Of a stretch of DNA of 64,000 nucleotides, positions 28,648 through 60,406 are shown piece by piece; the first letter of the stretch is position 1; each line of letters starts with the position of its first letter. The position numbers were made by a program, and so were the translations under genes. The stretch comes from Straminergon stramineum. Lineage: Eukaryota > Streptophyta > Bryopsida > Hypnales > Calliergonaceae. The stretch covers positions 8,618,001 to 8,682,000 of the forward strand of contig OY987267.1 of NCBI GenBank assembly GCA_963920665.1. The letters are read 5' to 3'. The notes under the pieces are model-generated. The model searched no databases. It was not told where the DNA came from and was given only the letters and a program-made list of their open reading frames with translations.

Positions 28648-28720
28648 GGTTATATGCCATATTTAACTACTTTTGGACTTTGGGGGGAATTCTGGACTTT
28701 TCTTCAAAAGATCTCCAGAT
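28648..28720 (+). repeat. Left terminal inverted repeat of the giant element
   Basis: GGTTATATGCCAT then ATTTAACTACTTTTGGACTT, TGGGG, and after a short gap GATCTCCAGATG. Pairs with 60330-60406. The core of about 30 bp differs at only one or two positions. Confidence 0.75.
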
Positions 28721-29050
28721 GAAAACTACCTACATTATGATGCATTTGAGACCACAATGACATTTGAAGTAGGAACGACTCTATTTGATAGAGCCTATAA
28801 ATATACTAAGAGCTATATGAGATAACATATTTTAGCAATGCAAACATGCAAATTGGTTATATTTGTATATAATTAACCAATCCATCTAGAGATATCTTCA
28901 TATTAAAGAATACCAAAAATTAGCTCTTAAAAACTGTAGATTGTAGGTAAGCAATGAGCATTCATATTCTAAAACATCTACATGATGATGTACAGGCATT
29001 CAGTTCCTCCATCAAACATTGGAGTTCCAATACTTAACTTTGAAATTGGA

Positions 29051-29248
29051 CATTTGGAGATCTTCAAATGCCATCCCTCAACTTTCTTCCACAAGTTCAC
29101 ACACAAAAGAGAATTCCAGAACAAAACTTCGGAATGGGAGATCTGGAGATCTTCAAATGCCATTCCCTCAACATTCTTTTACAAGTTCAAAGTAGAAAAC
29201 AATTCCAAAACCAAACGTAGGAATGGGAGATCTAGAGATCTTCAGATG
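29051..29248. repeat. Palindrome cluster 1: three units, period 89 bp
   Basis: Variants of the 20-bp palindrome at 29051-29070, 29140-29159 and 29229-29248, embedded in tandem units that also share CCCTCAACWTTCTTCCACAAGTTCA. Single copies follow at 29881-29900 (GGGAGATCTCCAGATG part) and 30470-30489. Confidence 0.8.
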
Positions 29249-30515
29249 CTATTCCCTCAACATTCTTCCACAAGTTCACATAAAGACATTTGTCTACTAA
29301 AGTAAGGTGGATTCACCTATATTTATTCACTTAGAAATACAAAGGAATAGGCATGTGCCTTCCACTGCTTAGAGTTCTAAAGCTAGTCTATTTGCTCTCT
29401 GGAATGCAGGTATCCCTAATACGAACATGTGGGAGTATTAGAGACCTCTTAAGCATGTTTAGGGGATTGATGTCAATGAATATAACAGTGTGATTCCTAA
29501 GCAAATTGTGCATTGTATCTCTACTAAAGAGTTCCCTAAAGAACTCCTTCCTATTAGGATGTGGATCTGACTTGTCCGGTAAATCACATCCTTGAACAAC
29601 AAATAGCCTGGTCACTATATTTTCTGGAATAAGAAATTGAAGGAGGTATTCCAATTTTGAAGTATTCATCTTTAACCAAACACCAACGGCAATGCGTCCC
29701 AACAATAATCAAACGAGATATCCAAAGCTCCCCAACTGCATATTTTGTTCAGCAATAGAGACAGCACCCTCAATGCATAGAGGACTTGTTAGTACGATGA
29801 CCACCACCCTTTGCAAAGACCCACCTCAACACATAATCAACTGTAGACAATATCCAACCGCATGACAAACAAACTAAAAACATCGGGAGATCTCCAGATG
29901 CCCTACAAAATAGAATTTACAATAAACAACCACGGCACACCAAACAAAGTACATACACAAATGGTACCCTAAAGTGCATTTACCACAAAATGAGCAGGAA
30001 GACCGCAAAGCAGACTTTAGAATTTCAAAATCATCTGCAAGTGACAAAAAAACTCTACGGGACTTGTATCGTAAGTGCTATCCTTATGCATTACTATCCT
30101 AATGATTCAATACAATACGTAAATTATTTCAATTGCAAAGGATTCTTCGAAATATAGAGTAAAATCAATGTCAGCATGGAAATGTATCTTCTATTAGACA
30201 TCTAGATAAAATTTGCAGAGTGAAAACTATATATGTTCACTTGCAAGGCCAACTACCAAATAGTAATTGACAAATGCACCTACAATTTTACATACAATAA
30301 GATTACAAAACGCCTGTCATTCGAGTATATACAATAGTTATGGCGCTAATGGTAAAAGAAAGTGCATTCCCAATATTTACAGTATATTTGAGAATATTAG
30401 AGTCATTATTCCCATTCCTATACACAGCTATAGAAGTACAATGATTTTGAAGAATGTCTTGGAATTCATCATCTAGAGATCTCCAGATGATATCTTCCAG
30501 ATACAAGTACTAGGC

Positions 30516-31165
30516 CTACAAACATCCCTTCAAAATGCGATTTCCAAGAGTGCCCAGTGGATCCTCTGACATTTGACAACCAAAAAGCGGGTTAGCCCGA
30601 ACATAAACCAGCACAACTTCGTTGGACTTTAGAAGACCGTTGAGCCAAGGCCGTAAGTATACATTCAAGAAGTTGTCAAACTCATCACCAGACCAAGTTT
30701 GCGGGTGAATGGCATTGTGAGGATTATTCAACAAATTCTTCACTAGACTGTCATCAATCAAGAGCACGTTGTCTATAGAATCTACTTCCTCCATGAAAAC
30801 CAAGGTTGTCAAATCCTTCAAAAAATAGGGCTTAATCGGTTGAGTTGGATTCTTATACAACGATTGAGTACAATCCATCTGCATAAGATATAAGACCTCT
30901 TTGTAACCAATAGTAGTACATGACAGAATTGTCTGTAACAACAACAGCATGTTCTTCTCCAAAGCACTACTCCAGAAGATGATCCGTGCCCTAGGAAATA
31001 GCCAGTCAAGGAACGCCATTAGACCCGGTCTTTGCTTCACTATTGGATTAGTTTTGTGGAAAATCTGGTGATTGAGAAGTCCATTCAAATCTAGGACGAC
31101 ATTATATTCCCGACTTAATACCTGATCAGGCATAGTTGTCATCGTCTCCACAGCCTTGAGTCCAC
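30516..31165 (-). pseudogene. FCP1/NIF-type phosphatase domain, last exon of the left cargo gene
   Basis: An open 210-codon exon after an acceptor at 31166. It resembles the FCP1 homology (NLI-interacting factor) domain of HAD phosphatases, which dephosphorylate the RNA polymerase II tail in canonical members. Motif I reads VVLDLNGLL, so the first Asp is kept but the second (acid/base) Asp is Asn. Motif II is FWSSALEK, motif III Lys lies near KPYFLKDL, and motif IV reads LLIDDS followed by NPHNAI. This exon alone has no internal stop, but upstream exons are broken, hence pseudogene. The Asn change may make it non-catalytic even if intact. The exon joins in phase to 31268 across an intron at 31166-31267. 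Confidence 0.65.
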
Positions 31166-31267
31166 CTAGACACCAAAGAGAAAGACCTGAGTTAGAAAGA
31201 AATCCCTAATAATGAAGACCGGTAATGTACAACATACGTAACAAAAAGAGAATGTCACTTCAAGCAC

Positions 31268-32950
31268 CTTTGACAATGCCCACATTGCCGTCCTTCCCCT
31301 CTTCCACCTCAAACCCCTTCCCCTCCTTTGCACTATCGACCCCCTCTTCCACTTCCAACTCGAGCCCCTCCCCCAACACAGCCATATCCGACCCCTTCTG
31401 AACTTCCAAATTGGCCCCAATTCCTTTAGAATGCAACATGTCCACCCCCTCCCCCAATTCCGCCATATCCAACACCTTCTCCACTTCCAACTGGAGCCCC
31501 TTCCCCTCAAATGGTAGCATCTCGGCTCTCTCACTTCTTCCACGACTAGCGAGACAATGGAAAGAACTCCATTGTGAGAGTCATCTAGGTCAACTACTTG
31601 CAATGTTTGTCCATAGATGAACAAAAAACATTGAGCTATCAAAAAGCTGAAACACAAGTAAGCTATTGCATTAAAGGATAACAAAAGCTAAGACATGATG
31701 TTAGAAGCATGTGCCCATATTATTTGTGTATGGGAATGCATACAAGGTCTTAGATCCTATGAAAGGAACTAACCTTCTCACACGCCACTCTTTCAAATCA
31801 AGGAATAGACTCTAGACTAAACGGGTTTAAGTCTGTCAAAGTATCAACTCGAAGCGAATCGGACATTCCTTCTATTATCAATGGATTTAGAACCATCTGG
31901 GGATCTCTAGATGCACTTGGGCCCTTCTCTAGCTGTAGTCTATCCTCCCTTAGGCATGGAGCATCAATGACTTTAGGATTCAAAGACTACTAAACGATTT
32001 GCGGAATCTCCGGACAAGAGCACTCAACAATTGGTACAACTGGGGCAACCATTGCACAATTGAGTAGAAGATCATCTGCTGCGCTATCATTGTCATTTTC
32101 AATGCCATAGTTACAATTCTGAGCATCGGTAATTTCAGCATCAGGCATTGCCGCATCAGAAACTCCACCACATTCCGAATGCTCGAGGGCTTCAGATGCA
32201 TCCCCTGAAATATTGGCAGCCCGATTAAACGCAAAACTCAAATTTCCCTTCTTGCAATTCCCTAGAGTGTTTTTTAGTCTTTGCGGTTTTGTCACCTTCT
32301 TCCAATTCTTGGCAGCAGGTGGATTCTTTAGCAATTGGGAGGTCCTACCCTTCTTCTTGCTCCGTCCCTCTGACACCTCTAAAGGCCCTGGTCGTTTCAT
32401 AGATTTTGTTTTTTTTAAAGTTGGATTCTTCAACTACTTTGGCGGCGCCGCTGGAGAGGGAGGTAAATCGTGAGACAATAGCACATAATACATGAGACTC
32501 GAGACCTATAGCATTAGCTAGCAATCCAACATCTAGAGATCTCCAGATGATTAAAGGTCATGCAATACTCACTTCAATTAAGATACCTTTGTGTGGTACC
32601 ATCCCCTCACTCTTCTCAGAGTAGTAGTCATTAGTACTCTCCTCCGATTCAAACGTATCGGCTAACAATTCCTCAATATGAGGTCCTGCTTGCCAACTCA
32701 CACCCGTAGATTCATGTTCCGAAGCTATAGATTGGTGTTCTGAAGCCGACATTTTAGGGGTTTTAATAGGACCTGCTAGTTTCGGTCTATCATTGACGCT
32801 GAACTGCTCGACGATGTGCTTGGCAATCATTTGCCTTCTCGATTCAACATCCTTGGAATGAAAAATTTCAAGAATCTTCAGTCGCCCCCATTGCTCCAAG
32901 ACAACAAATATAAGTGAGATTTCAATGGAAAAGTACAAATCATCACACAT
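31268..32950 (-). pseudogene. Low-complexity linker exons of the left cargo gene
   Basis: Includes an acidic repeat segment (31268-31520) with recurring GKGLQLEVE, GEGVDM and GEGLELEVEEGVD blocks, ending in a donor at 31267. A basic, probably nuclear-localising segment follows at 31990-32433 (KKTKSMKRP, GRSKKKGRT), then a Ser/Glu-rich segment (32558-32890) that joins the upstream module through an intron of about 100 bp. Joins among these parts are uncertain, and palindromes at 31894-31913 and 32530-32549 probably mark intronic DNA. Function beyond being a linker is unknown. Confidence 0.45.
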
Positions 32951-34331
32951 CAAAGTGAAGTATGTCCGGAAATCTCACCGCTCCAAAGTGAGTAATTTCG
33001 GGACCCCCATTCACATTCACTAGAACCATGTTGGCCTCAAGGAAACCTGCAAATATTACTAACGTGGTATTTGACCTCAGATAGGGAACATCTGCACATT
33101 TACAAGATATATCAACTTCCGTCAGCATGTCCTTTGAATAGTACATTGCTTTGATGGAGGCATTGTTGGGGAAGAAAGTTCTGAAGCGTTTCCGTGCACT
33201 CTCCGCTACATAGTATTCGAAACAGAACACTAGATAAACATCGAAGTCCTCCCCCACAGTAGACTCAAGAAAGCCATCCTCGATCCCTGCAATGTAGTGA
33301 ATGACGTGCCAATCCCAAAGATGGTTTTCTGTTTTAGAATTCCTTTTGCATAAATGAGCCAATATTTCATGAAATCCCAGAGCATCCGTCATGAGAATGG
33401 CAGGAGACTGAACTTCAACTGTGTTTCGATCAGAGTCTGTGACTTCAAGTGCATCAAAAAGTCTTCATAGCTTTCGGTCTTCCAAAATCTTGGCCCAAGG
33501 ACCACTCGGTGAGGCCTCAAACATGTACCACATATAGAGGTGTCTTTTTCCCTTTCCTTGCCAAGCAACCATGTCTGGTTAAGCGAGAACTCCGCTAATG
33601 TTCCAAAAGTGTTCGTCCATGGTTTTGGACAAATAGAACTCTACAAAGCCCTTTTCCAAAGCCTCTACCACAACCACTTTAGCCTTGGCATTGATGAATA
33701 CTTCCCACATGTCGTGCACAACCTTTGGACAATCCAAGGGCTCGTGGGTTTTGTTGACATTCCTTATTCGTCCCTGCAACCACTACTTTCCGCCCTCTGT
33801 CAACATAGCTTTGTCCATCCAATGACATATTTCGATACGAGAGATCTTCTTCTCTGTCGAAAAGTCCTCCCAGTCCGCATCCGTGTATGGCACGTACTCG
33901 GGCTTCTTGCTTGGAAGATAGAACTTCCGGTAGTGGCACATCATTTCGTTCTTCATTGCCCAGATAAGCCTCTCTCTCTAACCAACATCATATAGAGACG
34001 GGAGTGAAGATCCAATGCCATGTTTTTTCGCCTTCATGCTCTTAACGCAGATTTTCTTGGTTTCGACCAGACCCACCAGGTAGTTGATATCCTCCGGGCG
34101 AAGACCGTAAAGAGGTTTGAAGTCGTTGATTGTCAACGGCTTCCATTTGGCATCTACTTTTTTGGATAAGCTCCCTTCAGTACTAGGGAGCATATATTGA
34201 ACGTACTTTTCTTCAATTCGGATCCATCTATTCATGTCGTTGTTGTTGTCAAGGAATAATAATGGAATTTTCACATCTGCCTCATTGCCTTTGACAGTTG
34301 TGAAGATGGTGGACATAATTGGAAAGAACTC
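32943..34331 (-). pseudogene. Middle module of the left cargo gene, unknown family
   Basis: One frame runs from an acceptor at 34332 (TTATGCAG) to a donor near 32980, interrupted only by in-frame stops: TAG after SLYDVG, TAG before WLQGRI, TAA before PDMVAW and TGA after the EDRKL block. No frameshift is seen. Each stop is explained by a single C-to-T change (CAG, CAG, CAA, CGA). The sequence is globular, with Trp-rich blocks such as HYRKFYLP, CHWMDKAML, DMWEVFI and WDWHVIHYIAG. I do not recognise the fold. Confidence 0.55.
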
Positions 34332-34422
34332 CTGCATAAGAGACAAGTAAGAATTACTCTGTTGTCATTCTCTGCATTTAACTTCTTCTATATTTCATTA
34401 CCAAGGCATTTGTGAGGAGACT

Positions 34423-35094: not shown

Positions 35095-36380
35095 CAAGTA
35101 CAGCTCTGTGTGCGCTTGGCTGCCGTAGGATGGCTGTGGACTTCCCATTTCTTTCCATTTGATCCTTTCATAGATGAGCTATTTGGTGAATGATTGCTCT
35201 CTTTGTTCACCAACTACGTTTTAGTTAAGGGCTCACAAGAGTAATATGAGGTCATTCCATTTGCTGCAAGGAGCATAGACCGGAATTATATTAAAAGTCG
35301 ACGCCTCCTATTTGTCACACTCGGGGATCTCCCCATCTTGCACTAGGGCCTTGTACGCTTCCATTGTATGCTGGCCTCCAATGATAAAGTAGGGCGTGTC
35401 ATTCTTCAAGAATTCTCTCTTTGGGTAGGTATCATAGAATTTAGTCTACCCACTTGTGCCGTATGGCCCTTGCTTCACGGGAAGAACGACAATGTGTTTG
35501 AATTCAGACTGATAGTCGGTTTCTAAGTGTGCCTTGTTCTTGATACTCTTCAATCAACCCTCTTCAATTCCTCGGTACACAAGTTGGAGGACTGGAGCCT
35601 TGTACAAGTAATCGAAATGCACACGAAGCGACTCCCCAACCACATATGTGAATGGTTTTTTTCCCCATTTATACAGAAGATCAAATGTAGTCTTATAAAG
35701 AGCCTTCATGACCTTCATGTCCTTGGGTTGAAGCTTCTTCACTTCCGCCTCATTCATTTTTATGTACTAGATAAGGATAAGCTTCTTTACTTCGTCGTTG
35801 TCAACGTCGTTAGGGGCTTCCACTAAAGACTTCCGTTTCTTAGTCTTTTTCTTTGGTGATGACTCAAGCGGTGTGGCTTGAACATTTTTTGGGGTAGGGT
35901 TCATGTCATCTCGGGCCTCCTTGATCAGATCCCACTATACAGCCATGCTCTTAGGATTCCACCCCAAGACATCATTCTTGCAAAACAATAATCCAAGCTC
36001 TACACAACTATGACATAAACCGAGGTCCATTTTATTGTAATCTAGAATAAGCCCATATATTCTTGATTGCTCTGATTTTCCTATCTTTTCCTCAATTGTA
36101 ACGAGGATGTTGAACTCATCGAGACCTTGCATTTCGAGAACGTTCAAGCTTGCGGTTGGGTTCATCCTTCTGTGATTGATAAAACTTGGAACAATTTTGA
36201 CTCCACCATCAGCATCTTCCTTCCACTGAATCCCCCACTCTGTAATTTTGCTGTTGCAGCGATATATAGCTCCAAGGTAGAAGGCTCCACGATATTTGAA
36301 CTTATGAACCCATCCGTCATGGAAGGGGGCCAACTTTAGGGGTTGAGCATCCTTAGGACCCTCAGAGAAGTGTTCGTCTC
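35095..36380 (-). pseudogene. N-terminal ParB-like module of the left cargo gene
   Basis: A single frame from about 36380 (DEHFSEG) to a donor at 35094, then a 763-bp intron filled with palindromes (34332-35094). The block FIIGGQHTMEAYKALV resembles the GGxHR-type nucleotide-binding motif of ParB/Srx-like domains, with HIVVLPVKQGPYG just before it. Eight in-frame stops (for example after NPKSMAV, after IEEG and before EASTF) break it, with no frameshift. TAG dominates and each is explainable from CAG, CAA or CGA. A Lys-rich KKKTKKRK stretch near 35840 could be a nuclear signal. Canonical ParB domains bind or hydrolyse CTP; here a role in binding element DNA is only a guess. Confidence 0.5.
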
Positions 36381-36430
36381 TGCATCAAGTAATTGAGGCT
36401 AGTTAGAATTTTCGTAAACTACCAACAAGT

Positions 36431-36656: not shown

Positions 36657-36659
36657 ATG

Positions 36660-38500
36660 CTCACAAGAAGTCCTCTCGAGATAGCAATTGATAGTACAAA
36701 TACTATATTTTTGGGACATTTCCTTTCTATTTGGATCCTAAACTGTAGTCACTAGTACATATGTGGATATCTCTACATATTTCCGCGGTAATAGGTCCTA
36801 TTTCCTTCTATCTCCGTGCGTGAGGTTTACAAAGGGGTCATAGTGTAGAAGCATATGTGTCATCCCACAACGGTAGGATTCCCTTGCCCCGATCTAGTTT
36901 CATGATCATCCACACTCACAATCTGATGAAGCTTTCTTGCATACAAACAACAGAGTGTACATTCTGAATATAGTTTTTATGTCTCAATTTACTATGTAAC
37001 AGATTTCTCATTGCTTACAAACAACTAAAAGGAATCCTGAGGACAATTCTTGCAAGAAAGAGCGCATCGAGAGATAATTAGACAAATAAGGACCCTCTCC
37101 ATATGTACATATCAATTGCCAATTGGACATCCAAAAGCACAAAGACAATTGCAAATTCGCAACTGAAGATGTACTAAGGCAAAGCACACCCTCCGGAAGA
37201 TGACAATAATATGAGACTCACATTGTAAGCCTAAAGCACCAAACCAATTTTGAACCTACATTGACGTATTTATTTACTAACTTTTCTACTGTTGATCATT
37301 TGTATAGCAACTACAAAAATCAAGCAATCGGTCCTAATGCTAGTAGTGTAAGTTAGTCCAAAAATGGAAATCTAAAACAGAGTTCTAGCCGCAAGTTAGA
37401 AGCTAGGAACTCATGCAATCGGTCCTAACGCCTGTACTATAAGTTAGTTCGTCCAAAAATAGAAATCTGAAGCTAAAACCTAAACCACAAGTTAGAGGCT
37501 AGAAACTCAATCATGCAATATAACCTAAAACTACAATGAATACAATGACATTGAAAGTTTGGTAGACCCTGTGAGCAGGAAGTAACTTCTGTGGATGTCG
37601 ATCTCTCACTGCTGAAATGAAAAAAGAAGTTCATTGTCGCTAATTGCAATATAAACAAAATTGGCAAATTTGAACGTGGACTACCATTGTGAAACTTCCT
37701 TGTCCCAACCTCCATTCCTAAACAAACAATGCTCATAAACAAGCAATGCATAATGATTGTGAGGCAACCAAACCAACTTTGATCACAAATAAGAGCATGG
37801 TTTTGTTTCTACTTACCGAATATGCTTGGGTGCGCTCCGATAGTCGCTTACTACGCGCTCCAATCCTCTCTCTAGGCGCACTCCAATACTCTTTACATGC
37901 ACGCTGGACCCTTCTTCCCACAGAAACTTCTCACTCCACAACACTAGATTCGCGCAGGTCTTTTGTAAGTTCGAAGTCCGCGCCCCCTGGACTGTCGTTA
38001 GAAACACAACCCCTCCCCCAATATGCACTGAAATTTCACCGCTAAACCACCGTTACCTTCTCCAAGAGGTAGCGGTGGTGCAACTCCGTAAACCTCTTCA
38101 CGCAATACGACTCACACCGAAAGTGCAGTAGGGAAATTAAAATTCCTACGAACTGAAGTTCAGAAACGTCCAAGCGGACAGGCACAAGTTGCATGCCCAC
38201 ACCTAATCCAAAAAATAGGAACTAAGAATCACAAGAAACAACCAATCACGAGAAACAAACCATTGTGAGAAAAAAACCACCAATCGGACAAAGCTAAAGG
38301 AAAACAAGAGTGATAGGAGGAAGCCATCGGGGAAGAGATGAGGGACAATTGGAGTTGACGTCCTAGTCCTCCATCATCAAGGTGCTACTCCAGCCCATAA
38401 TGGCAAGTGAACTCACATAAGCATCAACTCAAGGTAAGTTCTCATTACTTGCCTCAGATTACTGAGTGTTATTAATTCAGGTTTTTTTAACCTTGTACCC
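36660..38500. other. Central non-coding part of the giant element, left side
   Basis: No gene recognised. It holds a two-unit direct repeat (about 37330-37500, period about 105-110 bp, with AATCGGTCCTAA and CAAGTTAGA), a GC-richer stretch at 37800-38110, and a 14-bp stem hairpin at 38046-38079 (ACCACCGTTACCTT paired with AGGTAGCGGTGGT). The position between two diverging cargo genes would suit a promoter region. Confidence 0.4.
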
Positions 38501-41500
38501 CCCTAAACTTACAAATTCATTTCCCGAATTCTAAATTCTGCGAAAACTAATTCAATATGAAGTTTCATCTATAAGCATATGTTGGAATTGATATACAAAT
38601 AAAACTTGTAGATTTTCATTTACATTTTCCATGATCTCAATCTATACTTAGATTCATCAATGCTATCATCCATATTTTTTTTAATTTGAAAGATCCTTCT
38701 AAAAATCCTTCTAAATTCAATTAAAAGAACAATATTATCATTTTTTTAGTAAAATTTGTAGGAATGGATTTATAATGAAGTTATCTTCATATGGCGATTT
38801 CCTTTTTGAAATTTCAATGTTTTTAAAATCCATGACCTCATTTTGGCAAATCCAATTTTGAACTAAATTCAATGCAATTTAACCACTTGACATACTGGCA
38901 CACTGTAAATTTAGAAAAATATATATTGTACTCTAATAACACCAAATCCAACCCTTATATAGGACAACAAATTTATATAATTAAATTTTGTATTTGCATA
39001 AATTAGAATATTAATTTTCATCCCAACAATTACAAGGATGAAATTTGAGTTCTCATTTATTCATTGTCCACAAAAAGGACGTCGAAACGGTTATAGGTTA
39101 ATTTGTTATGTATTTCAAAACCCGGTCTTGAAGCTTGCTAGTGTACATATTTTGAATTGCTCAAATTAAACCCTCAACAGACCAAACCCTTTTCTCCATC
39201 AAAAGGCCCTTTTAATTGCCACTTCTATTATAAGAGCAAAAAATTTGGAAACATGTTTTGTTCTCCATATAAAACTATAGGATCATGCACTATACTAGAA
39301 TGAGAATATATGATTGGAAGAAATTTCATATTAAACTTCGACGATATACATTACAAGATATTCACATCCAAAGTGAAGGAAACAATTTTTTGGGAACTTA
39401 CTACTTATGGACTAGATTTTATGGCTTTCAATCTTCTTAACTTAAAATTTTTGCATGTTTTTTTCCATTTTCTAGGTTTTTATATTGAATACTTTATTTG
39501 AAAATCTAGGAAAAAAATTCACAAAAAAAACAATTACTTTCTACTTTACTCATTAAAAAATTGTTATTAATAAGTAGTAGTATGTTCTAGATTGAATGAA
39601 AATCTAAATCATTCATAGATCTAAGATGAAATTGAAATACAATTATTTCGATGGTGTGATTGTTCTAATAAACAAACATAGTTGTGATTCTCTAACATTT
39701 TTTTTTGGGAAACGAATCCTATAAGTTAATTTTACTAGAAGATGCTTACATTGACTGAAAAACTAAGACTATCCATAACTTTCTCATCACTAGTATCAAT
39801 AGAATGAATCAATGCCTCAAATTTAGGGAAAAAAATTATGCTTTAGGAAAACAAATGAAAATTATTTAGGCACTTCATGATTTCTTTGAGCTGTCTACCA
39901 ACCTCCATGTATGCTTTATTGTAATTAAAGTAGACTAAGTAGCAAACCATCTTTCAGGACCAAAAAGACTCTCTCTAGTCCTCGAGAACCACTGAAAACT
40001 ATATCCATTGTGCTCCATCATCATTCTTATAAGAACCAATTTAACTAGCAATAGAACTAATTATGCTCATATTAGTCGGAGCAATAAAGTTAACTTCTTA
40101 TTAATGTATTGGACATGTATTATGTTTTGGAGGGTGTCTACAAAGAGGTTGGCAAAACAATCTCCAATTTGTTAATTCAATTTCGATCATAAGTACTTTT
40201 GAAATTATGCATTTTAATTTGGTAAGAATTTTAATTATTTTTTAAAAATGTACTAGTCTTCACAATTGATAATGACAAAAGACAATATAGTCACATACAT
40301 ATTGGTTATTTATAAATATGGTGTAGTTTCATCTACAATCCACCCAAAGTGGGAACACTCCATTCAAAATACATGAAATGCATTGTAATTATCATTTTCA
40401 TACAAAATGGAGAGAGATATTCACAAACTCATTCAAGTGCTTCTTGAATTTAGTATAGTTCTAAAATCATGAATCTAATGCATTTCTCGTTAGATAATTA
40501 AGTTAGCTATAAGTTAGAGTCTCTAGCAATAGAATTGCCATTTTGTTATGCCATAGCCCTAGACAGCATCCACAATACATTTATTTGGTTGCTTGGAGAT
40601 TGAAGAAATGAAGCTCCAATTTCATTATTTTAGGGTTACTTAGTTTATGGTTGGTCACGTATTGTGCACTAGTGACATGATTAAAATATTTGATCAATCT
40701 CCAATTATTTCCCTTTACAGTTGAAGTTTTGAAGTGAATCTTTTAGGATTTTCTTCAATAGTAGTCACTCTAACTTACAATGAGAAGTGCTTGTTGAATT
40801 CACGAATATGTGAAATGCCTATTTATTTTATCTTAAGTAATGAATTTAATGCTTGTATACCAATGTCATGTTCTTTTACCCTATCAACCTTCAATACAAT
40901 TGGAACTAGAATTTGTTGAATATGGACATATTAATTATTAAGGGGATTTCTTTAAAACAATCATTTCGGAGAGTCTTACACAATATTGGAAGTTCTATAA
41001 GCATAGGATAATTACCGATTGAAATGAATATATCTCAATGGGTAGCTTTAATTCTAAACTTCATCTACAATCATAAGTCATGACACTGCTATGTTTAACT
41101 AAACTTACATGGCATTGAACTTTTTTGTTGTTCTTCAATGAAATATTGAATATGGCATGATGATGGTTTTCCAAGCTTGCAAACACAATTCAATCATGAT
41201 GAAAGGGCACAATTACTAGTTTCATATTTTACTTAGATTGAAATTATGAATTTTGAACATAGTTTATGCATTTAGAGAGGTTGGAACTATACTGAGGCCC
41301 ATGAAATAAAGGACAATGAAGAACCCTAAACCCTAAAACCTTGAAAGAAGAATGAAAAAAAATGAAAAATTACATTTAAAAATTATCATGAAGATTAATA
41401 ACCCAACAAATTCCAAGGCCTAAACAACCAAGTTTTGTGAGGGAAGACACTAAGGTTTGTAAGATATGAAATTTGCCTTTCTCTTTCTCATTCTATAATT

Positions 41501-44068: not shown

Positions 44069-44291
44069 GAGATGGATTTACTATCAAAATTTATTGTCGA
44101 CTTGTAGTCATCCAAATTTAGTTTGAAATAGCAAATCCTTTTTTTTTTAAAAACTATTTGTAAATTCACTTGAATGTTTTGAGATGGATTTACTGTTTAA
44201 ATTTTTTGTCGACTTGCAATCATCCAAATTTAGTTTGAAATAGGAAATCCCTTTTTCAAAACAACTATCTGTACATTCACTTGAATGATTG
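44069..44291. repeat. Tandem duplication, period 112 bp
   Basis: GAGATGGATTTACT occurs at 44069 and 44181, followed in each by GTCGACTTG, CATCCAAATTTAGTTTGAAA and TTCACTTGAATG. Confidence 0.85.
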
Positions 44292-47320: not shown

Positions 47321-47334
47321 CTCACCCCCACCAA
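47321..47334 (-). other. Polypurine tract of the chromovirus
   Basis: On the minus strand TTGGTGGGGGTGAG ends directly at the 3' LTR, the standard position of the plus-strand primer. Confidence 0.75.
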
Positions 47335-48208
47335 ATAGCGTCGATGCCCTCATCGACATTACTTCATGCCGGTAGTGTTAAGTTTCTCAGGTAGCCCACC
47401 TCCTTAACACTTGCATTGTGTTCTCGGGTAGCTAGCCCCACAATGCATCAAGTCCCCTTACTTGGTCTAAATGGCTAAGTCCTCAAAGGTGTCATTAAAT
47501 AGGTCTTAGGTCCAAGGCACCCTAGCCTTTCTCAAAAGAGGACCTAATCTAACTAAACCTACCTACCTTGAAACTCTCTCGAACTTAATTGGCTCAAAGG
47601 AACTTTCCCAAACCTTAGTTCCAAGCTAGGCCCAACTAGCTTATCACATTTCTCACTTGACTTAGGATGATTTCAAGGCTAACCAACTTCCACTTGGACG
47701 CAACTCCAAGACCCCTTTCTAACATTTCTGCCATTAAGTGATGAACTTTGCCCGCCTCAAGATAGTGTCAAGTCCCGCCCGACTTGTCTTTGCTTCACTC
47801 TAAAGACATAGTTGATCAAGCTATGCATTATCGATGGACAACTCACAAAGGCACTTTTATAAGCCCGTGCCACTACCTTGCCCCCACCCGGGCAAGTCCA
47901 AGGCTTGGGACTTATGTGGAATCACCCATTCACAACCCCCAAGCCAAGGCCCCTAATTGGCAGCATTCCAAAAGTTGGCTTCGCATATCACTTCAATCCT
48001 CATCTACCCAACTTACCTCTAATGAAGAGACTAGGACTCATCTCACATTTTTAAGCCACACAATTCCGAAATGCACTTACAACCTCAAGCCACTTTATTG
48101 CAAACCAAATATTACAAAGTGTGCCTTGCACAACTTCCTAACCAAGCACTATGCAAAGTCTCCCCAAGTGTGGTGTTTCACCCCCACCAACAAAGGTTGA
48201 TGTCCTCA
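47335..48208 (-). other. 3' non-coding region of the chromovirus
   Basis: About 870 bp between the gag-pol stop and the polypurine tract. The plus-strand frame at 47784-48200 overlaps the 3' end region and shows no family resemblance. No envelope-like gene is seen. Confidence 0.6.
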
Positions 48209-51200
48209 TCAACGCATCCGTCCTCGTTTGTTGCCTTGCCTTTGAGCTTCATACAAGTCCACTACCTCCTTGGCATTGACCATATGTTTGGCCTCTACCC
48301 AAGTTGCTTCCTTCTCATGATACCCCCGCCATTTCACCAAGTACTCTTTACCTTTCCTCTTGGTGTTTCTACTTTTCAAGATCCCTTCCACCTCATACTC
48401 AAGGTGGTCACCAACCAACTCCGGTGGAGGCCGCAACACTTGCTTGTGCTCCAGCCTCAAGGTATCTTCATAATATGGCTTGAGCAATGAAACATGAAAA
48501 GTTGGATGCACCTTGATTTCCGGTGGTAATGTTAACTTATAGACATCCTCAAACAAGCACTTTTCAATGACAAACGGACCCGCATACTTTGCCATGAATT
48601 TGGGAGTTAGGCCCTCCGGTAAGGTGAAGTTCTTCACATTCAACCAAACCTTTTTGCCCTCCTCATACTCAACATGGCGTCGCCCTTTGTTCACTTGGTC
48701 TACATACCTCTTTTGTGCTTTGGCTAACCATACCTTGGTCTTTTCGAGCATTTGCTCCCTTTTGGCAATCAAGTCCTCCGCATCTTGGTTTGGCAACGGC
48801 TCTACTTGTGCTTGCTCCAAGGCTAAGTCGGTAGGCATAAGTGGCTCCACTCCATAGGCCACTTTGAACGGTGATTCCCCGATCGCCGCATGCTTGGCTT
48901 TGTTGTAACTAAACTCTGCCAAAACCAAGTACTCCGTCCAATCACTTTGGTCTGCACTCACGTAATTCCTTAGGTATTGATTGAGAACCCCATTCACCCT
49001 CTCCGTTTGTCCATCGGTTTGAGGATGAAATGCCGTGCTAAACGCAAGTTTAGTCTTCATCTTACGAAACAAGTGCCTCCAAAATGCACTTGTAAACTTA
49101 GGGTCTCTATCCGAAACAATCACCCTTGGCAATCCGTGATGTCGCCACCACATGTTGAGGAACAAGACCGCGGTCTCCAATGTGGTCACCGTCCCTCGAG
49201 TTGGCTCCATGAGTGTCAACTTGCTAAAGTGATCTACCACCACAAAGATCGCATCATACCCTCATGACATCGGAAGGCTCGTGATGAAGTCCATGGAAAC
49301 ACATTCCCATGGCCCACTTGGAATAAGCAAAGGTCGTAACAATCCCGCTTGCTTTTGATAAGATGCCCGATTGCCTTGGCAAATGACACAAGTCTTCACA
49401 TAATGGGTAATGTCTTCCTTCATCCCCGGCCAATAAAACCTCTTGCTAACCGAACATATGGTGGATTTCTCCCCCCTATGCCCGGCCAAGGGGTTATCAT
49501 GTTCCTCTTTCAACACGGTTAACCTCAACTTGCCACTTGGAACATACACCCTACTTTGTTTGAACTTGATCAAGCCTTCATGCAACCGGATTCCTTTCAC
49601 TTTCTTACCACTTCGCAAGTCACTCAAAAACTTTTGAGCTTCCGGGTCCTTCATATACGCCTCCCTTATCTTCCTAGCCAAGTCCCCTTCACCCACATAC
49701 ATCATGCGCAAAATTTGGGTGGTACTTGGCCTATGCTCCTCTTTCCGACTTAGTGCATCCGGCACTACATTCTCACGCCCCAGCTTGTGGATCAACTCCA
49801 CATTCATAAGCGCCAAGGTATCATACCACCTCAATTGCTTTGGTGACACCCAAGCTTGGTTCTCAAAGTACTTCAAAGATACATTATCGGTGTATACCTT
49901 GGTCTTATGAAGACCAAGGTAATGTTGCTATGTCTTCAAACAAAGCACCACGGCAAACATTTCCTTCTCATGCGTTGGCCACTTGGTTTGAGTTCCATCA
50001 AGCTTTTTGCTCTCAAACGCAATGGGCCGCCCATCTTGCATGAGCACTCCCCCAATGGCAAAGTCGCTTGCATCGGTGTGCACCTCAAATGGTTTCTCAA
50101 ACTCGGGAAACTTCAATACTGGTGGAGAAGAAAGCTTTTGTTTGAGTTCTTCAAATGATCTCTCACAATCATCCGTCCACACTATGGCAAGGTTTTTCTT
50201 CAATAAGTCGGACATAGGCTTGGCAATTTTGGAAAAGTCACGAATGAACCGTCTATAATAATTGGCCAACCCAAGAAAGGATCTAACTCCCTTTTGGGTT
50301 GTAGGCCTTTTCCACTTTTGAATTGCCTCTACCTTTTTGTTGTCTGGCTTGATTCCCGACCCCGTCATAATGTGTTCCAAGAACTCCATTTCCATCAAAC
50401 CAAACTCACTTTTCTCCCCATTTGCATACAACTTGTTATCCCTTAGTTTTTGAAGCACCACCTCAAGATGCCTAGCATGCTCCTCCGCCGTCTTGGAAAA
50501 CACCAAAATGTCATCAATGTATACAATGACAAACTCATCAAGCTCCTCATGAAATATCATATTCATGAGTGTGGTAAAAGTCGAAGGTCCATTGCACAAT
50601 CCAAATGGCATGACCAAAAACTCATAGGACCCATATCTTGTCCTACAAGTCGTTTTCTCAACGTCACCCTCCGCAATGCGAATTTGGTAGTAACCCGATT
50701 TCAAGTCAATGCGGCTATAGTACTTAGCCCCCGCCAACCGATCAAAGAGATCATCAATTCGAGGCAAAGGGTAGTTGTTCTTGATGGTCACCTTATTGAG
50801 AGCCCGGTAATCCACACACATGCGGAGTTTCCCATTTTTCTTGTCCATAAACAAGACCGGTGCTCCATAAGGTGATTTACTTTGGCGAATATACCCCTTT
50901 GCCAAAAGCTCCTTGAGTTGTTTCTTCAATTCTTCCAACTCCCTTTGGTTCAATCTATATGGTGCCTTGGACGGTGGCTCCGACCCCGACACCACCTCGA
51001 TCTTGTGATTCACTTCTCTCTTCGGCGGTAGCTCATCAGGCAACTCTTGAGTAAGTACGTCCACAAACTTTCGGATTACATCACCAACACATTTTGGAGG
51101 TTGCTTCCCCTTAGCACCTCCATGGCTAACTCCTTCATGTGAGTCCGCCTGCATCACAATCAAAAACCTATTTTCCTCTAGGTCCTCAATGCTAGCTAGT

Positions 51201-52807
51201 AGGATTCGACTCCCCAATAATGAAGGAGTCCTAGTTATTTTCAACTCTATTTCCCTACCATCTGCATTAGCGACGACCTTCACCTTTGGTCGTCGCCGTA
51301 TGTCTACCTCATATGTATCCAAAAAGGTATTTCCTAGGATGAAGTCCACTCCATCCATGTCACATACAGTGAAGTCTTCCACAAAAGAAAATTCTCCACA
51401 CTTCACCTCCACATCCGTCACAATGTGGCTTGTTTGGTGAGGCTTACCCTTGGCAAACCTCACATGGATGGGCTTGCTTGCCTTAGTCTTTTGCAAGCCC
51501 AACTCCTCCGCCGCTCTTGGACTTATAAACGAGTGGGTTGCCCTTGTATCCAACAAAAATGAAACATCACGTTGGCCAATGGTCCCTTGGAGAAATAACA
51601 ACCTTGGTTTTATTTTGGTTCTACTTGCCTTAGCCACAAAGCCCCCATAAAGCAAGTGTTTTGTCAAGTGGGTGCGCATGCTTTGAGTACTCACCCGCGG
51701 TTTGGTGCAACCCTTTGCCATGTGGCCCTTCTCACCACAATTGAAGCAAGTCATTTGACTTCCATCCCCCTTTGGCTTGTTGTCACCTTCCGCTTTTCCT
51801 TTAGTAGAACCCCCTTTATTCCCACTTGGTTGTCCTCCATCTTGCCCATGCTTCCGCTTTTGCCAAACGCATTTCCTTAGTTGGTGCTTCGAATGTGCCT
51901 TGGTAGATTCATGTGTTGAGGCCCCATCTTTGGACCTCTTGTTGAGACCTTCATCATCCCCAATCCTCTCCGCAAGCTTCAATAACTCAGCACATGATTC
52001 TGGCAACCTTGGCATTCAAAACAATGCTTGTTCCGCCCAACTTTGGAGTCCATTGAAGAAAATGATCTTCTTCGCCAATTCATCTAACTTCGGGAGTACA
52101 CTTAGTTGTGCGTTGAACTCCCGCACATACCCCCTCAAAGTGCTGGTTTGCTTCAACCGCACTAATGCCATCCCATCACGAAGGTCTTGGTACTCCGGTG
52201 TGAACCGGTTACCTAGTAGTTTCTTGAAACTAGCCCAATCAAGGTTCTCTACCACCTCCCCATTCTCCTCTTTGTATTGGGTCCACCACGTCAAGGCGTG
52301 ATCTTTCAAGAAAGTCACCGCAATAGTGATCTTATCCTCTTCAAATGCACGTTGAGCTTCGAAGTACATCTCCATCTCCACAAGAAAGTCCTTAACCTTA
52401 TGAGCCTTGCCCATCCCCGTGAAAGAAGAGGGCATGTTGGTGTTGCACAACTTGTGAGATGAAGAGCTTGAGCTCTTCTCTTTTAGCTCTCTAATTTCCC
52501 CTTGCATGTCCCGAAGAGTTTTGACAAGTTCCTCAAACATCACATCACGTGACTTCTTTTTCCGACTTCGTGGTGCCCTCAAAGGACTAGAGGCGGTATC
52601 CCGATTGTCTTCACTAGCTTCTTGGTTCCTACTATGTTTCATAGCTAGCCCTTCTTGCTTTGCTATGGGGTTCACTCCTTCCTCCGAAGAGTGCACCCTT
52701 TCACCTTGTGTTTCTGAGGCTTCTCCATGCTCTTGACTTTGACTACGTGTTCGTCGACCCTATTCAGAAGGCTCAACTTCACCAATTTTGGTACCCTTTC
52801 TATCCAT
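48209..52807 (-). pseudogene. Gag-pol polyprotein of the chromovirus, four in-frame stops
   Basis: A single frame of 1533 codons from ATG at 52807, 33 nt after the primer site, with no frameshift but stops at 52762-52760 (TAG), 52018-52016 (TGA), 49930-49928 (TAG) and 49264-49262 (TGA). Each fits a single G:C to A:T change. Recognisable parts in order: gag core (WWTQYKEE, DLRDGMALVRLKQ), zinc knuckle [14 protein letters not shown], protease with DTRATHSFI in place of the usual DTGA (active-site Gly changed to Arg), reverse transcriptase YIDDILVFS, RNase [11 protein letters not shown], integrase HHCC (HRGEK..CVICQ) with DRDPKF and HPQTDGQTERVN, and a C-terminal chromodomain (YLVKWRGY, ATWVEA). 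The chromodomain presumably directs insertion to methylated-histone chromatin. Confidence 0.93.
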
Positions 52808-52839
52808 GCCTTCCAAACTCCGTCGCACTACGTAGCCCT

Positions 52840-52851
52840 GCTCTGATACCA
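52840..52851 (-). other. Primer binding site, initiator Met tRNA
   Basis: Minus strand TGGTATCAGAGC, the standard complement of the 3' end of plant initiator methionine tRNA, 2 nt inside the 5' LTR. Confidence 0.93.
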
Positions 52852-52853
52852 AG

Positions 52854-53975
52854 TGTCGCGCCCCTTAGTGGCACTTATCCCCTTAAGCTCACTTTCCAAA
52901 CACTTAACACCTTAGTGCCACCAAGGTTCACGCTCTCCTAACATTGCACATACCACGCACCCACAATGTTAGGTTCCAACTCAAGTCACAGGGTTCCCCA
53001 TTCCTCCGTGACTCCCAATCCTTTCCTTCCAATACTTAACTCCCACAAGACACCGGGCATGTCATTTGATGACATGGGGCGGAACTTCCATTGATGTCCA
53101 AGCACCCGGTGAGGCACTACTCCCACCAGTGCTAACCGCCCTTGAATGGGACCCAACTCCCCACTAGGCCCAACCCAACTCATTTCGGGACTCACTAATC
53201 GGGACTCACCAAACGAGACTCACACCATGGCCTAGTGTGAAGTGGGACACCACCTTATCGGTATCAAGGAGTACACAAGCACTCCATGGTAACACACAAG
53301 TGGTAGTGAGGCTCCAACACTAGCCTCACCATCCGGGGCCACTTAGGCTCACCATGGCACCATCCGAGAGTGAGGAGGGAGACCACCCCTCCTCATAGTA
53401 CTCTCTACAGGATTCGGCAACCCCCCCCATACTAGAGGTCACCGGGAACCCCCAAGATGCACCCCATCTTGGAAGACCACCCATTTCTCCCGATTCGCGC
53501 TAGTTTAAGACTCCCGAACTTCCACCCGGCATAACTTTGCGGTCCGGGATCCAAATCGCACATGCGACCCCATTTTCGACATTTACGCGACGCGTAGATG
53601 CCGATGGACTACTCACTTGCTCCATTTGGACAAGTACTCGCAAAGATATCGCCCTCCAAAGATTCGGGACACTCCCGGCGCGGCCAAGGCACTCCCGGCG
53701 CGATCGGGACACCCCCAACTTTGAACGCCCATAACTTTTGACTCGCAAGTCCAAATCACGCGTTCTTTGGACGGCTAGAAGCGTCTTCTCAAGACCTTTC
53801 CAAGCGTATATTACACGCCCCCAAATTCGTTCAGATCAGAGCGCTACATCGCTCTGATCGCTTGGGACTCCTAGTCCCCCTCACCTCATCTCTTGCAAGG
53901 CTTGGGGCGTCACCCCCAATGTCCCCCTTGCTCACCAAGGTGGCACGGGCACGCCTTGTGATGAGGGTCGTGACA
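52854..53975 (-). repeat. 5' LTR of the chromovirus (1122 bp)
   Basis: Partner of 46199-47320. It precedes the primer site in the direction of transcription. The promoter within it was not resolved; I see no clean TATA box by eye. Confidence 0.95.
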
Positions 53976-53980
53976 ATTTT

Positions 53981-54660: not shown

Positions 54661-54667
54661 CATTATC

Positions 54668-55773: not shown

Positions 55774-58700
55774 ATGATTCTCACTCCCACGAATGGTTGT
55801 TTGATTATCATGTTTGTCATACAGTGGAAGGTGTCCAAGTACTCTAAGGTCATTTCAAGGGAAGTTCATATGGATTCCTTTGGTGGTTGCTCTAGCACTA
55901 CTGTCGTGCCATACTCAAGTAGCCCAACGTTGGAAGAAGCCTCTGAAGTCTCAACCGCCCGATGTGAGCCATTTCACAATGGAGATGAAGTGAAGCTTTC
56001 TATTCCAGGATTTGGTGAAGTTGGAGGTGGATTGGTTGTCGATACTTGTCCGCAAGGCCAATGGCTTGGGGTGGACATATCTTTAGAGCCAAGCCTTTTC
56101 ATTTTGATGCGGCCGCATACTGTATTTCAAGAAGCCTAGAGTATCCCTCTGTCCCCCTCCCAAAGGGGTATTACGTCATTGTGGGAGGCCATTGACCAGA
56201 CTGTGTTGTGGAACACAAATGATGTGAGGAAATTATCTGATGATCCGCCGATGGATATATCTCCATTTGTTCCTCAAGAGGATTGGATAGGGCTTGAAGT
56301 ACATCTTCAGAACTATGAAGGCACTGTCGAGGCATCAAGTAGAATTAATTGTTGGAGGTCGGAAGATCATTTCCAGGGTGGAACACTTGGTGAAGAATAT
56401 GTGGGTGTAACTATGTTGGATGTATTTCTGGGGAACAAAGAAGCTTTAATGACCCACGCCCGATGACCATTATCTTCCTCTTGGTTTCCTAGTGGCCGCT
56501 CTTTGAAAAAGACAATCGCACATTTTGCCACCATCCCCATTCCTGATGACCCATTGGCATATCTAGGAGGCAGACTGAAAGCTCCTTACTGATTCATCAT
56601 GCGGAAGCCCAGTGTATGTGTGAAAGACTCGTTAACCGCCTGTAAAACTCAAGATTATGAGATTCAGAAGGATAGTTCCGCTAGATGCTGCAATAGGCTG
56701 TGCTACCAATTTTTTTCTCATGAGCAGACATTAATGATAAGGCAAAGATTCTATTTGAAGTCTTTTGAAGACAGATGTGAATACGGCATCGCTACCTGTG
56801 GTTACATTCACCATTTTGATGGAGATCGGAATCAAAAAATCATTACATTAGAAGGTATGGAAGTATGTATTCCGGTGTGGTACATAATTCACGGAATTTC
56901 GAAGTCCACTTATCACAGTTATTCGCTCATGTACAAGGAAGGGGTTCTTTCGGGGACTCATGGAAACAAGGGAATTAAACGACCTCGGATAGGAACTGTT
57001 CAAGTCAGTGGAACTATGAAAGCAATCATAGACGAGAATGTTGATCAAATGCCACACCAACTGTGTAGCATCGGTCATGGACGAATGGACACTCTCAAAT
57101 TTCTACTTGTAGGAAACAATTGGAAGCGCTTGCATATTGAGGCAAACGAGGTACTTTTCAACTTTCGTTCGGTTTAAGGAATCATCTAGAGATCTCCAGA
57201 TGATCCGACCACATATTTCATTACGTTCTAATTGTAGTTGAGAAATTCTAATTGTCCTTTGTTTCCTTTAGAATTATATAGTATCACTCCAACAGCTCAT
57301 GCATGTTTTGTTTGGGGGGTGTAGTTAAATCTAGACTACGGCCTTCCGCCCTTGAGTCAATCAACAATTAGTCGAATTAAGAAGGAGCACTTCAACAATG
57401 TCTCCATTAAGTCGATTGGAAGTTCTTTTGCAAAATGTACCACGTGTGACGAGCTTTAGCAGTTTATATTGAAATCACTGAAGGCGAGCCAGGAGTCGTG
57501 GAGTTCATGAAACAATAGACTGAACATCTTAATTTGCAAGCCTCTTGCCGTCACCTGTATGCATCCTAGCCTGAGGAGTCCAAGAGGAATCCATTAGAAA
57601 TTCTTTGTGTTATTCACGACAAAATGGATACCTCAAAGACAGCCCTTCCAAAGATGCATGTGATAACGAAGACGACACAAGGTCTAGGTCAAATTCCAAT
57701 GAGTGTTACTAGAATGGTAGCTCATGGTCATGTTGATGGTGCGTACGCACATTATGCCCCATCATGCTGGCTAGGAGACTCCAACTTCACAATATCCTCT
57801 TTGGCAAGATTGTTTCGCTAACTGGAAGGTCCACCAATTCAGGAGACTGGTGACCTCTTCCCATATCCGGCAGCAAACCCTATGTTTGAGGCACTACTAA
57901 AAGGGAAGTCAAGATGTGTAGATTGTTTAATCCTAATAGAACCATGAGCCTGACATGGATCTTGCCCCCTTCCTAAATATTTATACCTTCAGCTAGACAA
58001 CTCTACAAAGGACAACAAGAACCAATATCTCATAGCGTTCTTATCCCTGTTGACTGCACGTCGTGTCTTCAAGGAAATTTAGGTTGGGTTCCTACTTGTT
58101 GGACATACTCACGAAGATATTGACGCTTACTTTAGCCATCTTTCGAAGGCCTTGAAGTCGAAGAACACTTTTGGGGTTGCCGACCTCATGAAAACCTTCA
58201 TGCAATCACAAGAAATGGCGTTCATGCCAGAGTTCATACAAGAGGTGGCAGACTTCAAGTCGTTCATCAAGGATTACATAAAGAGGTCACCGCTAGATTA
58301 ATTGGATTGAGAGAAATGCATCTTTTCAAGTTCTATGTGAACAATGATGGGGTCCCCGTCATGAGATACAAGAAGGCTACAATTGATACACAGTGGTTAC
58401 CAACTGATAAACCATCTCTTCACCTTTGGAAGAAAGATAGTACATGTCGACCAAGGCTTCCCCCAAGTTGTCCAAAGCCTGTTCCATTCAAGCCCATGTG
58501 GGGAAGTGAAGTTCCAAGCATGACCGGGAATCAAGAGAAGGCCGTGGAGTTGGCAAGGAAAGCTACCCTAAACAAGAATTTCATTATGGTAGGACTAGAA
58601 AAGTACCTATAGTATTGGAAGAACGGTATGTCCAAGTGTGAGGGATTTGCAACAGCCTTTCGTCCATACGTAGATTACCGGAATCGTGTGTTAGAGGAAC

Positions 58701-59257
58701 TCAAGAAACCACTACCTGACTACCCACCAGAATTGGTGGAAGGCTTTTGGCCAAAACACGATTGGAGGAAACCAACTCATGAAATCCCTCGTCGGTCATT
58801 AATGGTGAATCCTGTGGATGTCATTCCCGAAGAGGAGGACCGAGAAGCATATTGTGGCCCGGCAAATGAAACACCACCAGAAAGCTTCAATCCTTGGCTT
58901 GACATATGACCAGGCTGATGGATTCTTCTCAGACCTGAAGACCCTTCAATTTATACTGTTTGGCAAGGTAGAGCATTGTCCAACATATGCATAGTGCTAG
59001 GAGATGAGAATAACAGGAAGTTTTTATTGCAGTACTAGAGACCGGACAACTCTAAAGCTACTTTGGAGTTAAGGTACCAGAATTGTTGGTATGGCAAATG
59101 GGTTGTTGAGAACACTTCCCCTATATAGGTGGATGCAAATTGTGTTATGTATGCAAATTAGTCTAAGATAGTAGATCCAAAATCAAGGACAATTCCTAAG
59201 AAGAGTAGGGAGGCTGCCTTGGTGAATTTGAATATGGCGAATGAGGTAGATCCTTGA
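55774..59257 (+). pseudogene. DUF7869-type protein gene, probable transposase of the giant element (decayed)
   Basis: Frame opens with ATG at 55774. An intron lies at 57151-57324 (GAG before GT, GTGTAG acceptor) and contains a palindrome. N-terminal part: a Gly-rich GEVGGGLVV segment, then CCNRLCYQFF and CEYGIATCGYIHH, PRIGTVQVSGTMKAIIDENVDQ, and a FAKCTTC knuckle. Core blocks: CVIHDKMDTSKTALP, LYLQLDNSTKDNKNQYL, LVGHTHEDIDAYFSHL. The spacing of acidic residues resembles an RNase H-like DD(D/E) nuclease, which is my inference. At least 15 in-frame stops, mostly TAG and TGA explainable from CAG and CGA, and two single-base frameshifts (near 57485 and 58285). The C-terminus (EGFWPKHDW, then WILLRPED to NMANEVD) is still readable. 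DUF7869 is recalled as an uncharacterised family common in repeats. Confidence 0.7.
57183..57202. repeat. Palindrome copy inside the intron of the DUF7869-type gene
   Basis: CATCTAGAGATCTCCAGATG, flanked by T and A so that the palindrome extends to 22 bp, within the intron 57151-57324. A perfect CATCTGGAGATCTCCAGATG follows the gene at 59286-59305. Confidence 0.9.
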
Positions 59258-60329
59258 TTGAGTTCTGTATCCATGCTAGCAAGGTCATCTGGAGATCTCC
59301 AGATGTATTTTCTATCTTCACTTCTGAAGATAAGTGAGGTTCTTATTAGACAATGCTCTTTATAATTGTAATTACAAAATTTAGTGGATTGTTCAAGAGA
59401 GTTATGTTTGATGTTATGTATAAATATAACACATTAAGAGATTCAATGTAGCGTTCATGGTATTCATTTCTTCCATGTTGGAGAATGGAAGCCCGGAAGA
59501 CTTAATGTTTAGTTGGCGTTGTACTTCATTGCTCTCATTTCTTGGAGGAAAACTAGTACATATTTGAATGTAAAGAAATATGGCATGCTTGGAAATGACA
59601 AGCATTTGTAAGTTATGAGTCAATAAGATTGTCTTTTATGCCAAAGTTGGAGTGATGTCATTGTCAAGTAGGCCTATTTCTATTGTACCATGTATAGATT
59701 CATGTTGGTATCTTGAATGAATGATTGACCAAATTATTGTTTGCACTCCTGAAGACAACGATGTTGAACTTACACTCATTGTGGACACTCACTTCCTAAA
59801 CTTCTGGTGTATTTGACTTTGTTCTTCCAAGTTACTACAAATTACCTGAAGTATTTAGTTAATATTAGAGATCAATTGAGGTCTATATGGTATCCTGCAT
59901 TCAAGAATTCATCAATTGCTTTGGGGTGGGAGCCATATTCGCTTTTACTATTTGTCATCTAGAGATCTCTCGGTAGATAGTGTCACGTTTTCTATGTTGA
60001 ACAATGATTGGATGCAACCTTCTTTGCCATAGGGATAACTCAAGAATCCCTATCTGGAGAACTCCTAATCAAACTATGAGAACTCCTTGGCATAAGGATG
60101 TATTTGAGACACTTCTAAAGAAGATGGGCCCCGAACTATATACTTTTTTTGCTTTCCCAACACAAAAAGAAGTCCTTAGAATTATAATAGGTGCAGAATT
60201 TAGAGCATGGGAAGCATCTATACTACTTTAGAATGGGAGTTCTCCAGATATAGGTACATATAGGGTACAATTTGAAGCACATGAAACATCCATATCACTT
60301 GATTCTAGGAGATCTCCAGATGCAAGACT
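59258..60329. other. Right subterminal region of the giant element
   Basis: Non-coding, with a perfect palindrome at 59286-59305 and decayed palindromes or half sites near 59956, 60046, 60229 and 60306. A 75-codon ATG frame at 60004-60231 overlaps these half sites and is unlikely to be a gene. Confidence 0.5.
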
Positions 60330-60406
60330 AACCATCTGGAGATTTTAGTAGTTTTTAATTTTTGGACTTCTCCAAAGTCCAAAAGTAGTTAAATGTGGCA
60401 TTTATG
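60330..60406 (-). repeat. Right terminal inverted repeat of the giant element
   Basis: Read inward on the minus strand: CATAAATGCCAC, ATTTAACTACTTTTGGACTT, TGGAGAAGTCC and, after a gap, ATCTCCAGATGG. It also contains an internal GGACTTCTCCAAAGTCC hairpin not conserved on the left. Confidence 0.75.

Follow-up and report, generated by a model that had tools for sequence, protein, structure and literature searches.

A 64-kb stretch of the Straminergon stramineum genome (contig C5, positions 8618001 to 8682000, of a 326-Mb genome in 59 contigs), hereafter called the window, contained a giant mobile element with terminal inverted repeats, a gene of the DUF7869 type that likely encodes its transposase and, on the opposite strand, a ParB-like gene and an FCP1-like gene. 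In all likelihood, the element is one copy of a multicopy family, with dozens of copies, of giant cut-and-paste DNA transposons. More tentatively, we propose a case of self-recognition in a land-plant transposon, in which a ParB-like protein with an inactive, methyltransferase-derived DNA-reading domain may bind palindromes spread through the element, and in which protein and palindrome may have diverged together between two coexisting subfamilies.

Ends, target duplication and copies of the element

Given that TTAT was found at both junctions, the bounds of the element were placed at 28654 and 60401, as follows.

28654 to 60401, plus strand: whole element, 31,748 bp as found, based on its ends, the 4-bp duplication and a second copy in the same order
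28654 to 28683, plus strand: left terminal inverted repeat, ATGCCATATTTAACTACTTTTGGACTTTGG
60372 to 60401, minus strand: right terminal inverted repeat, 29/30 identical to the left one
28650 to 28653, strand not applicable: left target site duplication, TTAT
60402 to 60405, strand not applicable: right target site duplication, TTAT

The alignment of the two ends extended over 33 bp, of which 30 bp lay inside the element. An earlier note on this DNA had described shared inverted ends, and these were recovered as a 20-mer at 28661 and, reversed, at 60375 to 60394. The same note had proposed an 11-bp duplication, GAGCACC(T/C)AAT, which had to be abandoned: only TTAT was anchored at the junctions, making the duplication 4 bp, and the other end pairs shared no 11-mer across their flanks (longest 7). 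It had also pictured a single mobile unit of about 24 kb into which a retrotransposon later inserted. This agreed well with the length of 23,966 bp that was left when the nested retrotransposon and its 5-bp duplication were subtracted, and with a copy on contig C4 (24,424 bp), which had no retrotransposon and was collinear with the window element from first base to last, its blocks in the same order. The main segments of these two copies were 77 to 87% identical, with one AT-rich segment at 71% and some stretches of up to about 1 kb unaligned. A second subfamily, sampled in full at C6:6149356-6170886 (21,531 bp), carried all three genes in unchanged order, at lower identity (long tblastx segments mostly 42 to 77%).

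The terminal 20-mer was a common motif, with 354 forward and 345 reverse sites genome-wide (699 in total, ≤2 mismatches) against 3 and 4 matches for the reversed control, and at least three of the first eight end-motif loci were short elements of about 200 bp (4-bp duplications AATT, TTAT and AAAA). Both observations would suit the view that the two ends in the window are independent repeats lying 32 kb apart by chance, as would an exact end pair at C6:98522/132796 that had no duplication. However, this view was contradicted by the end-to-end match of the C4 copy, by the exact 4-bp duplication in the window and in six of the eight other end pairs, and by the fixed distances among end, ParB-like gene and DUF7869 gene, and we consider it almost certainly wrong. 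Exact 4-bp target duplications were thus present at 7 of 9 giant-element end pairs, the window included. In eight elements (window plus seven), they read TTAT, TTGT, ACAA, ATGT, GCAT, TAGT and ATAA, with CTCC/CTCA in the eighth; the ninth pair, the one on C6 without a duplication, enclosed family ParB-like and DUF7869 matches. The C1:28382 copy had two left ends, of which the outer one gave a matching duplication and the inner one did not.

The distances were examined by comparing exact end motifs (at least 100 among the matches listed, on C1-C6) with DUF7869 matches (150 listed, 77 of them on C1-C6). Eight DUF7869 matches, all in one orientation, had an exact end within 60 kb upstream, seven of them at 18.6 to 22.3 kb and the eighth (C4:26172599) at 40 kb; one further exact end lay 57 kb downstream of a DUF7869 match. 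Since the number of pairs within 60 kb (10) showed little excess over five shifted controls (2 to 8), the signal is the common distance and orientation and not the plain pair count. In all seven elements with a left end at 18.6 to 22.3 kb, a right end followed roughly 2 kb beyond the gene, so that DUF7869 copies bounded by these ends, on which the single-element idea of the earlier note depended, do occur.

Gene linkage gave a larger sample, in which copy counts are lower bounds, being taken from the best-scoring candidates of each genome search. The C-terminal exon of the ParB-like gene had at least 110 matches, merged into at least 93 loci, and 28 of the 41 ParB-like loci on C1-C6 had an exact end 4.1 to 10.6 kb away in the expected sense (mean 0.075, maximum 2, in 200 random shifts). 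A search with the family DUF7869 exon (best 124 of 711 candidates) returned 79 copies at 66 to 100% identity and 45 copies of another clade at 40 to 43%. A ParB-like locus was found 8 to 32 kb upstream on the opposite strand in 63/79 family copies and in 0/45 other-clade copies, arguing that the gene pair is part of the element and not the chance cargo of one copy. The linkage held for 45/49 family copies off C11 and 18/30 on C11 (shifted control mean 0.6, maximum 3), and 63/93 ParB-like loci had a linked family DUF7869 gene. It was also noted that C11 held 30/79 family DUF7869 copies and 32/93 ParB-like loci, although the matches there spanned only about 17 Mb of the 326 Mb; C11 may be a chromosome with little recombination, such as a sex chromosome.

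Genes carried by the element

In a layout common to the copies, the FCP1-like and ParB-like genes shared one strand, and the DUF7869 gene lay on the opposite one, some 2 kb short of the right end. In the window, this layout comprised the following features.

55870 to 58906, plus strand: DUF7869 (PF25273) gene, likely a DDD transposase gene, broken by stops and frameshifts
35100 to 36384, minus strand: broken N-terminal portion of the ParB-like gene, containing the motif FIIGGQHTMEAYKAL; motif reading, no profile match
32946 to 34364, minus strand: C-terminal part of the ParB-like gene, broken
30519 to 31205, minus strand: exon with an FCP1/NIF-like HAD phosphatase domain (PF03031, E 2.4e-14); putative gene start near 32433

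The DUF7869 and FCP1-like assignments made in the earlier note were thus borne out by profile, while the ParB-like one found no profile match. Its description of two diverging cargo genes needs revision on both counts, since the DUF7869 gene most likely encodes the transposase and the minus strand probably carries two genes, one ParB-like and one FCP1-like.

The PF25273 profile matched at 58083 to 58298 on the plus strand. Among DUF7869 relatives, D541, D677 and D717 (D-135-D-39-D) were present in 32/32, E716 in 22/32, and the predicted fold was RNase H-like (DDE/D). Given this invariant triad and the predicted fold, the DUF7869 protein is likely the DDD transposase of the element and not cargo. 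With Foldseek alone, neither the DUF7869 nor the ParB-like C-terminal model reached an E below 0.001, and in the structure-match list P0002, MutY-like, Spt5 and Tudor chains aligned to other parts of the model. The nearest named relatives were from the mosses Physcomitrium and Ceratodon (44 to 45% identity over 90 to 99% of the searched stretch); closer ones were unnamed metagenome proteins, several at 54 to 80% over shorter stretches. No paper of the searched literature named DUF7869. Genome-wide there were 860 candidate loci, of which the best 150 were scored and every listed match was above the cut-off, and DUF7869 genes probably make up one of the main groups of transposases here. A likely function, that of a DDD transposase, can in this way be assigned to a Pfam domain of unknown function that is abundant in the genome. 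Pfam score and frame length were identical at five other-clade DUF7869 loci (C6:4992884, C6:1678583, C8:1117479, C11:3468694 and C11:4820612), suggesting that a different DUF7869 element has undergone a recent burst.

The ParB-like gene of the window contained stops and frameshifts. We call it ParB-like from its motif; the domain had no profile or sequence match in Pfam, NCBIfam, PHROGs, PDB sequences or plasmids. For the C-terminus, the predicted fold of a relative's intact exon appeared to resemble adenine methyltransferases, with a first Foldseek row to an RNase P subunit (E 0.022) and the next to a methyltransferase (E 0.026), and a sequence search of this part for a methyltransferase returned nothing useful. 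The [DNS]PP[YFW] (DPPY) motif was not found at the candidate position, placed by reading and not by structural superposition, in any of the eight rows with data (3/8 being close copies), which read TDAAG, TDAVG, TDAIG, TDCEG or MDALG. Judging from the model and this motif, the C-terminus is probably methyltransferase-like but inactive. Adenine methyltransferase partners that have lost the catalytic motif exist, and the ParB-like C-terminal domain may resemble MTA1/MTA9 and METTL3/METTL14 in predicted fold, differing in that here it is joined to a ParB-like part and borne by a transposon.

The FCP1-like domain matched PF03031 (NIF domain) with E-values of 2.4e-14 in the window, 4.3e-17 in the C4 copy and 1.6e-8 in the C6 copy. 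The active site of FCP1/SCP-like phosphatases is marked by DxDx(T/V), whereas the window, C4 and C6 copies all read DLNG[LV]. As a guess, the protein could be a phosphatase-like regulator.

Palindromes of the element and its subfamilies

28709 to 60342, strand not applicable: span of CATCTGGAGATCTCCAGATG-type palindromes, 24 core sites (≤1 mismatch)

In the two subfamilies, these 20-bp, GATC-centred palindromes took the form CATC[T/G]GGAGATCTCC[A/C]GATG, the two arms differing together. Sites cored by GGAGATCTCC (≤1 mismatch) numbered 24 in the window element, 36 in the C4 copy and 60 in the C6 copy. The earlier note had them confined between the ends, and indeed the other 32 kb of the window had no such core site and no match to the 20-mer palindrome at ≤4 mismatches. 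Within the element, GAGATCTC was absent between 36643 and 54766.

The consensus was CATCTGGAGATCTCCAGATG in the window and C4 copies and CATCGGGAGATCTCCCGATG in the C6 copy. At positions 5/16 (sites with ≤3 mismatches), the pair was T-A at 23/25 sites in the window and 25/34 in C4, and G-C at 49/59 in C6. The fetched loci, which partly overlap so that some sites are counted twice, gave T-A 53/72, G-C 0 and other pairs 19 for the first type, and G-C 71/105, T-A 0 and other pairs 34 for the second. Genome-wide, exact palindromes numbered 170 of the T type and 257 of the G type, and the reversed controls gave none of either. Of the 170 T sites, 50 were listed: 43 fell within ParB elements of the window type, at 5 loci, and none within the second type; of the remaining 7, 3 were no more than 25 kb from an exact end among the matches listed. 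Of the 257 G sites, 50 were likewise listed: 38 fell within the second type, at 7 loci, and none within the window type; the remaining 12 were all no more than 25 kb from an exact end, again among the matches listed. Exact G-type clusters at C1:6076098-6090925 and C2:13740748-13756282 stood beside an exact end and had no listed ParB-like locus; perhaps they represent a non-autonomous relative.

None of the 30 top Pfam-search DUF7869 loci (stretches of about 3.6 kb, all absent from the family list) held a GGAGATCTCC-cored perfect palindrome, which indicates that the palindrome goes with the ParB-like gene and not with DUF7869 in general. This bears on a somewhat doubtful alternative, in which the palindromes bind the transposase itself, as dispersed sites like the subterminal repeats of En/Spm-like elements, and the ParB-like gene is unrelated cargo. 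Such binding would be consistent with palindromes close to both ends of the window element (28709; 60309-60336) and with degenerate ones inside or beside the ends of four end-motif loci (L001, L002, L005 and L008). However, perfect palindromes lay within the same distance of the gene in the window (59286) and in C4 (10359621) as the stretch that was empty at all 30 non-family loci, the ParB-like gene was missing from all 45 other-clade copies, and some palindromes were 6 to 8 kb from the nearer end (C4:10344685-10346974).

It is rather unlikely that the palindromes are passive, functionless repeats that multiplied inside the element through tandem duplication and gene conversion. Two arrays in the C6 copy did show a regular spacing of about 50 to 55 bp, as such an origin would predict, but the palindromes were spread over 20 to 30 kb and the T-A versus G-C difference was symmetric at most sites of each copy. 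Two points call for caution about linking the palindrome with the ParB-like gene: the two palindrome types reflect just one divergence by descent, and tandem arrays occur among them.

That the palindrome of the sister subfamily is spelled differently and yet still palindromic suggests that the element may label its DNA so that it can be recognised. In the mechanism we envisage, the DUF7869 transposase would cut at the ends and insert at 4-bp staggered sites. With less confidence, the ParB-like protein would bind the GATC-centred 20-bp palindromes as a dimer, and binding over about 20 kb could compact the element and allow ends more than 20 kb apart to meet (synapsis); alternatively, it might tag the element for the transposase it encodes or shield it from host silencing. 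A role in methylation is possible only with another, active subunit, and the FCP1-like protein might, as a guess, act on host transcription or chromatin. If true, co-divergence of protein and palindrome would keep subfamilies that share a nucleus separate, and the proposal would bear on how transposons of more than 20 kb still pair their ends. It would extend to land plants the algal idea of transposons binding or marking their own DNA, and a palindrome array that differs by subfamily would be the missing cis partner, making self-recognition testable by a simple binding assay.

Known transposons and neighbouring features

With its 4-bp duplication, DDD pattern, 30-bp ends and large size, the element fits a giant Sola-like transposon, a candidate assignment made from these features. 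KDZ elements have a target duplication of 8 bp and Mutator-like elements one of 8 to 11 bp, against 4 bp here; a Mutator-like element was rejected for this reason, and it is very improbable that the element belongs to either group. KDZ elements do resemble it in size and accessory genes, the available part of PMC12477816 describing giant forms of tens of kb with accessory genes in fungi and algae. According to the accessible portions of PMC10741241 and PMC9033089, the Sola superfamily has a DDD transposase, a 4-bp target duplication and terminal inverted repeats of 11 to 1124 bp, a range that includes the ends found here, and Sola1 is reported in the moss Physcomitrella. In the same portions, most members measure 2 to 9 kb, some exceed 15 kb and accessory genes are unmentioned, whereas the present element is larger than most and carries them.

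The closest known system is Sola1-1_Ec32 of Ectocarpus, described in part in PMC12477816: 21.5 kb, with a ParB-like gene opposite to the transposase, the ParB-like protein also having an N4/N6 DNA methyltransferase domain. In view of this published element, the label of apparently undescribed in the earlier note was too strong. The two share size class and an opposite-strand ParB-like gene, and a methyltransferase domain is suggested here too by the fold match. Sola1-1_Ec32, by contrast, comes from a brown alga and has a predicted active methyltransferase, while the present element has no DPPY-type motif at the candidate position; an FCP1-like gene and palindrome arrays, both present here, are unmentioned in that part of PMC12477816. 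The land-plant form, the FCP1-like gene, the lost catalytic motif and the subfamily-specific palindrome arrays were not mentioned in the available parts of PMC12477816, PMC10741241 and PMC9033089, and that of PMC6431247 mentioned neither Sola nor ParB.

Two further features occupied the middle of the element.

36660 to 46198, strand not applicable: mostly AT-rich stretch, no stop-free frame of ≥150 amino acids, mostly alignable to the second copy
46199 to 53975, minus strand: nested Ty3-type chromodomain long terminal repeat (LTR) retrotransposon, 7,777 bp

The insertion of the latter, as claimed previously, was evident from its LTRs (1078/1125 alignment columns identical) and its ATTTT duplication (46194-46198 and 53976-53980).

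The short elements at L001, L002 and L005 were non-autonomous, with the same ends facing each other and degenerate palindromes; a 4-bp duplication was seen in all three, the ones showing both ends.

At the window junctions, the GAGCACC motif stood immediately outside the 4-bp repeat. The flanks (28557-28607 and 60442-60505) matched parts of a short dispersed repeat, one match holding another GAGCACC, and repeated target DNA may be the reason for the motif on both sides; the two junction copies themselves were covered by no other locus in the flank-repeat search. No locus spanned the junction as an empty site in a genome search with the joined flanks (best 40 of 257 candidates). Elsewhere, the flank repeat occurred as inverted copies about 180 bp apart, e.g., C4:18248770 and C4:18248953. 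Outside the element, window positions 1145-2366 and 17741-19543 held local direct-repeat arrays, with spacings of, e.g., 139 and about 520 nt.
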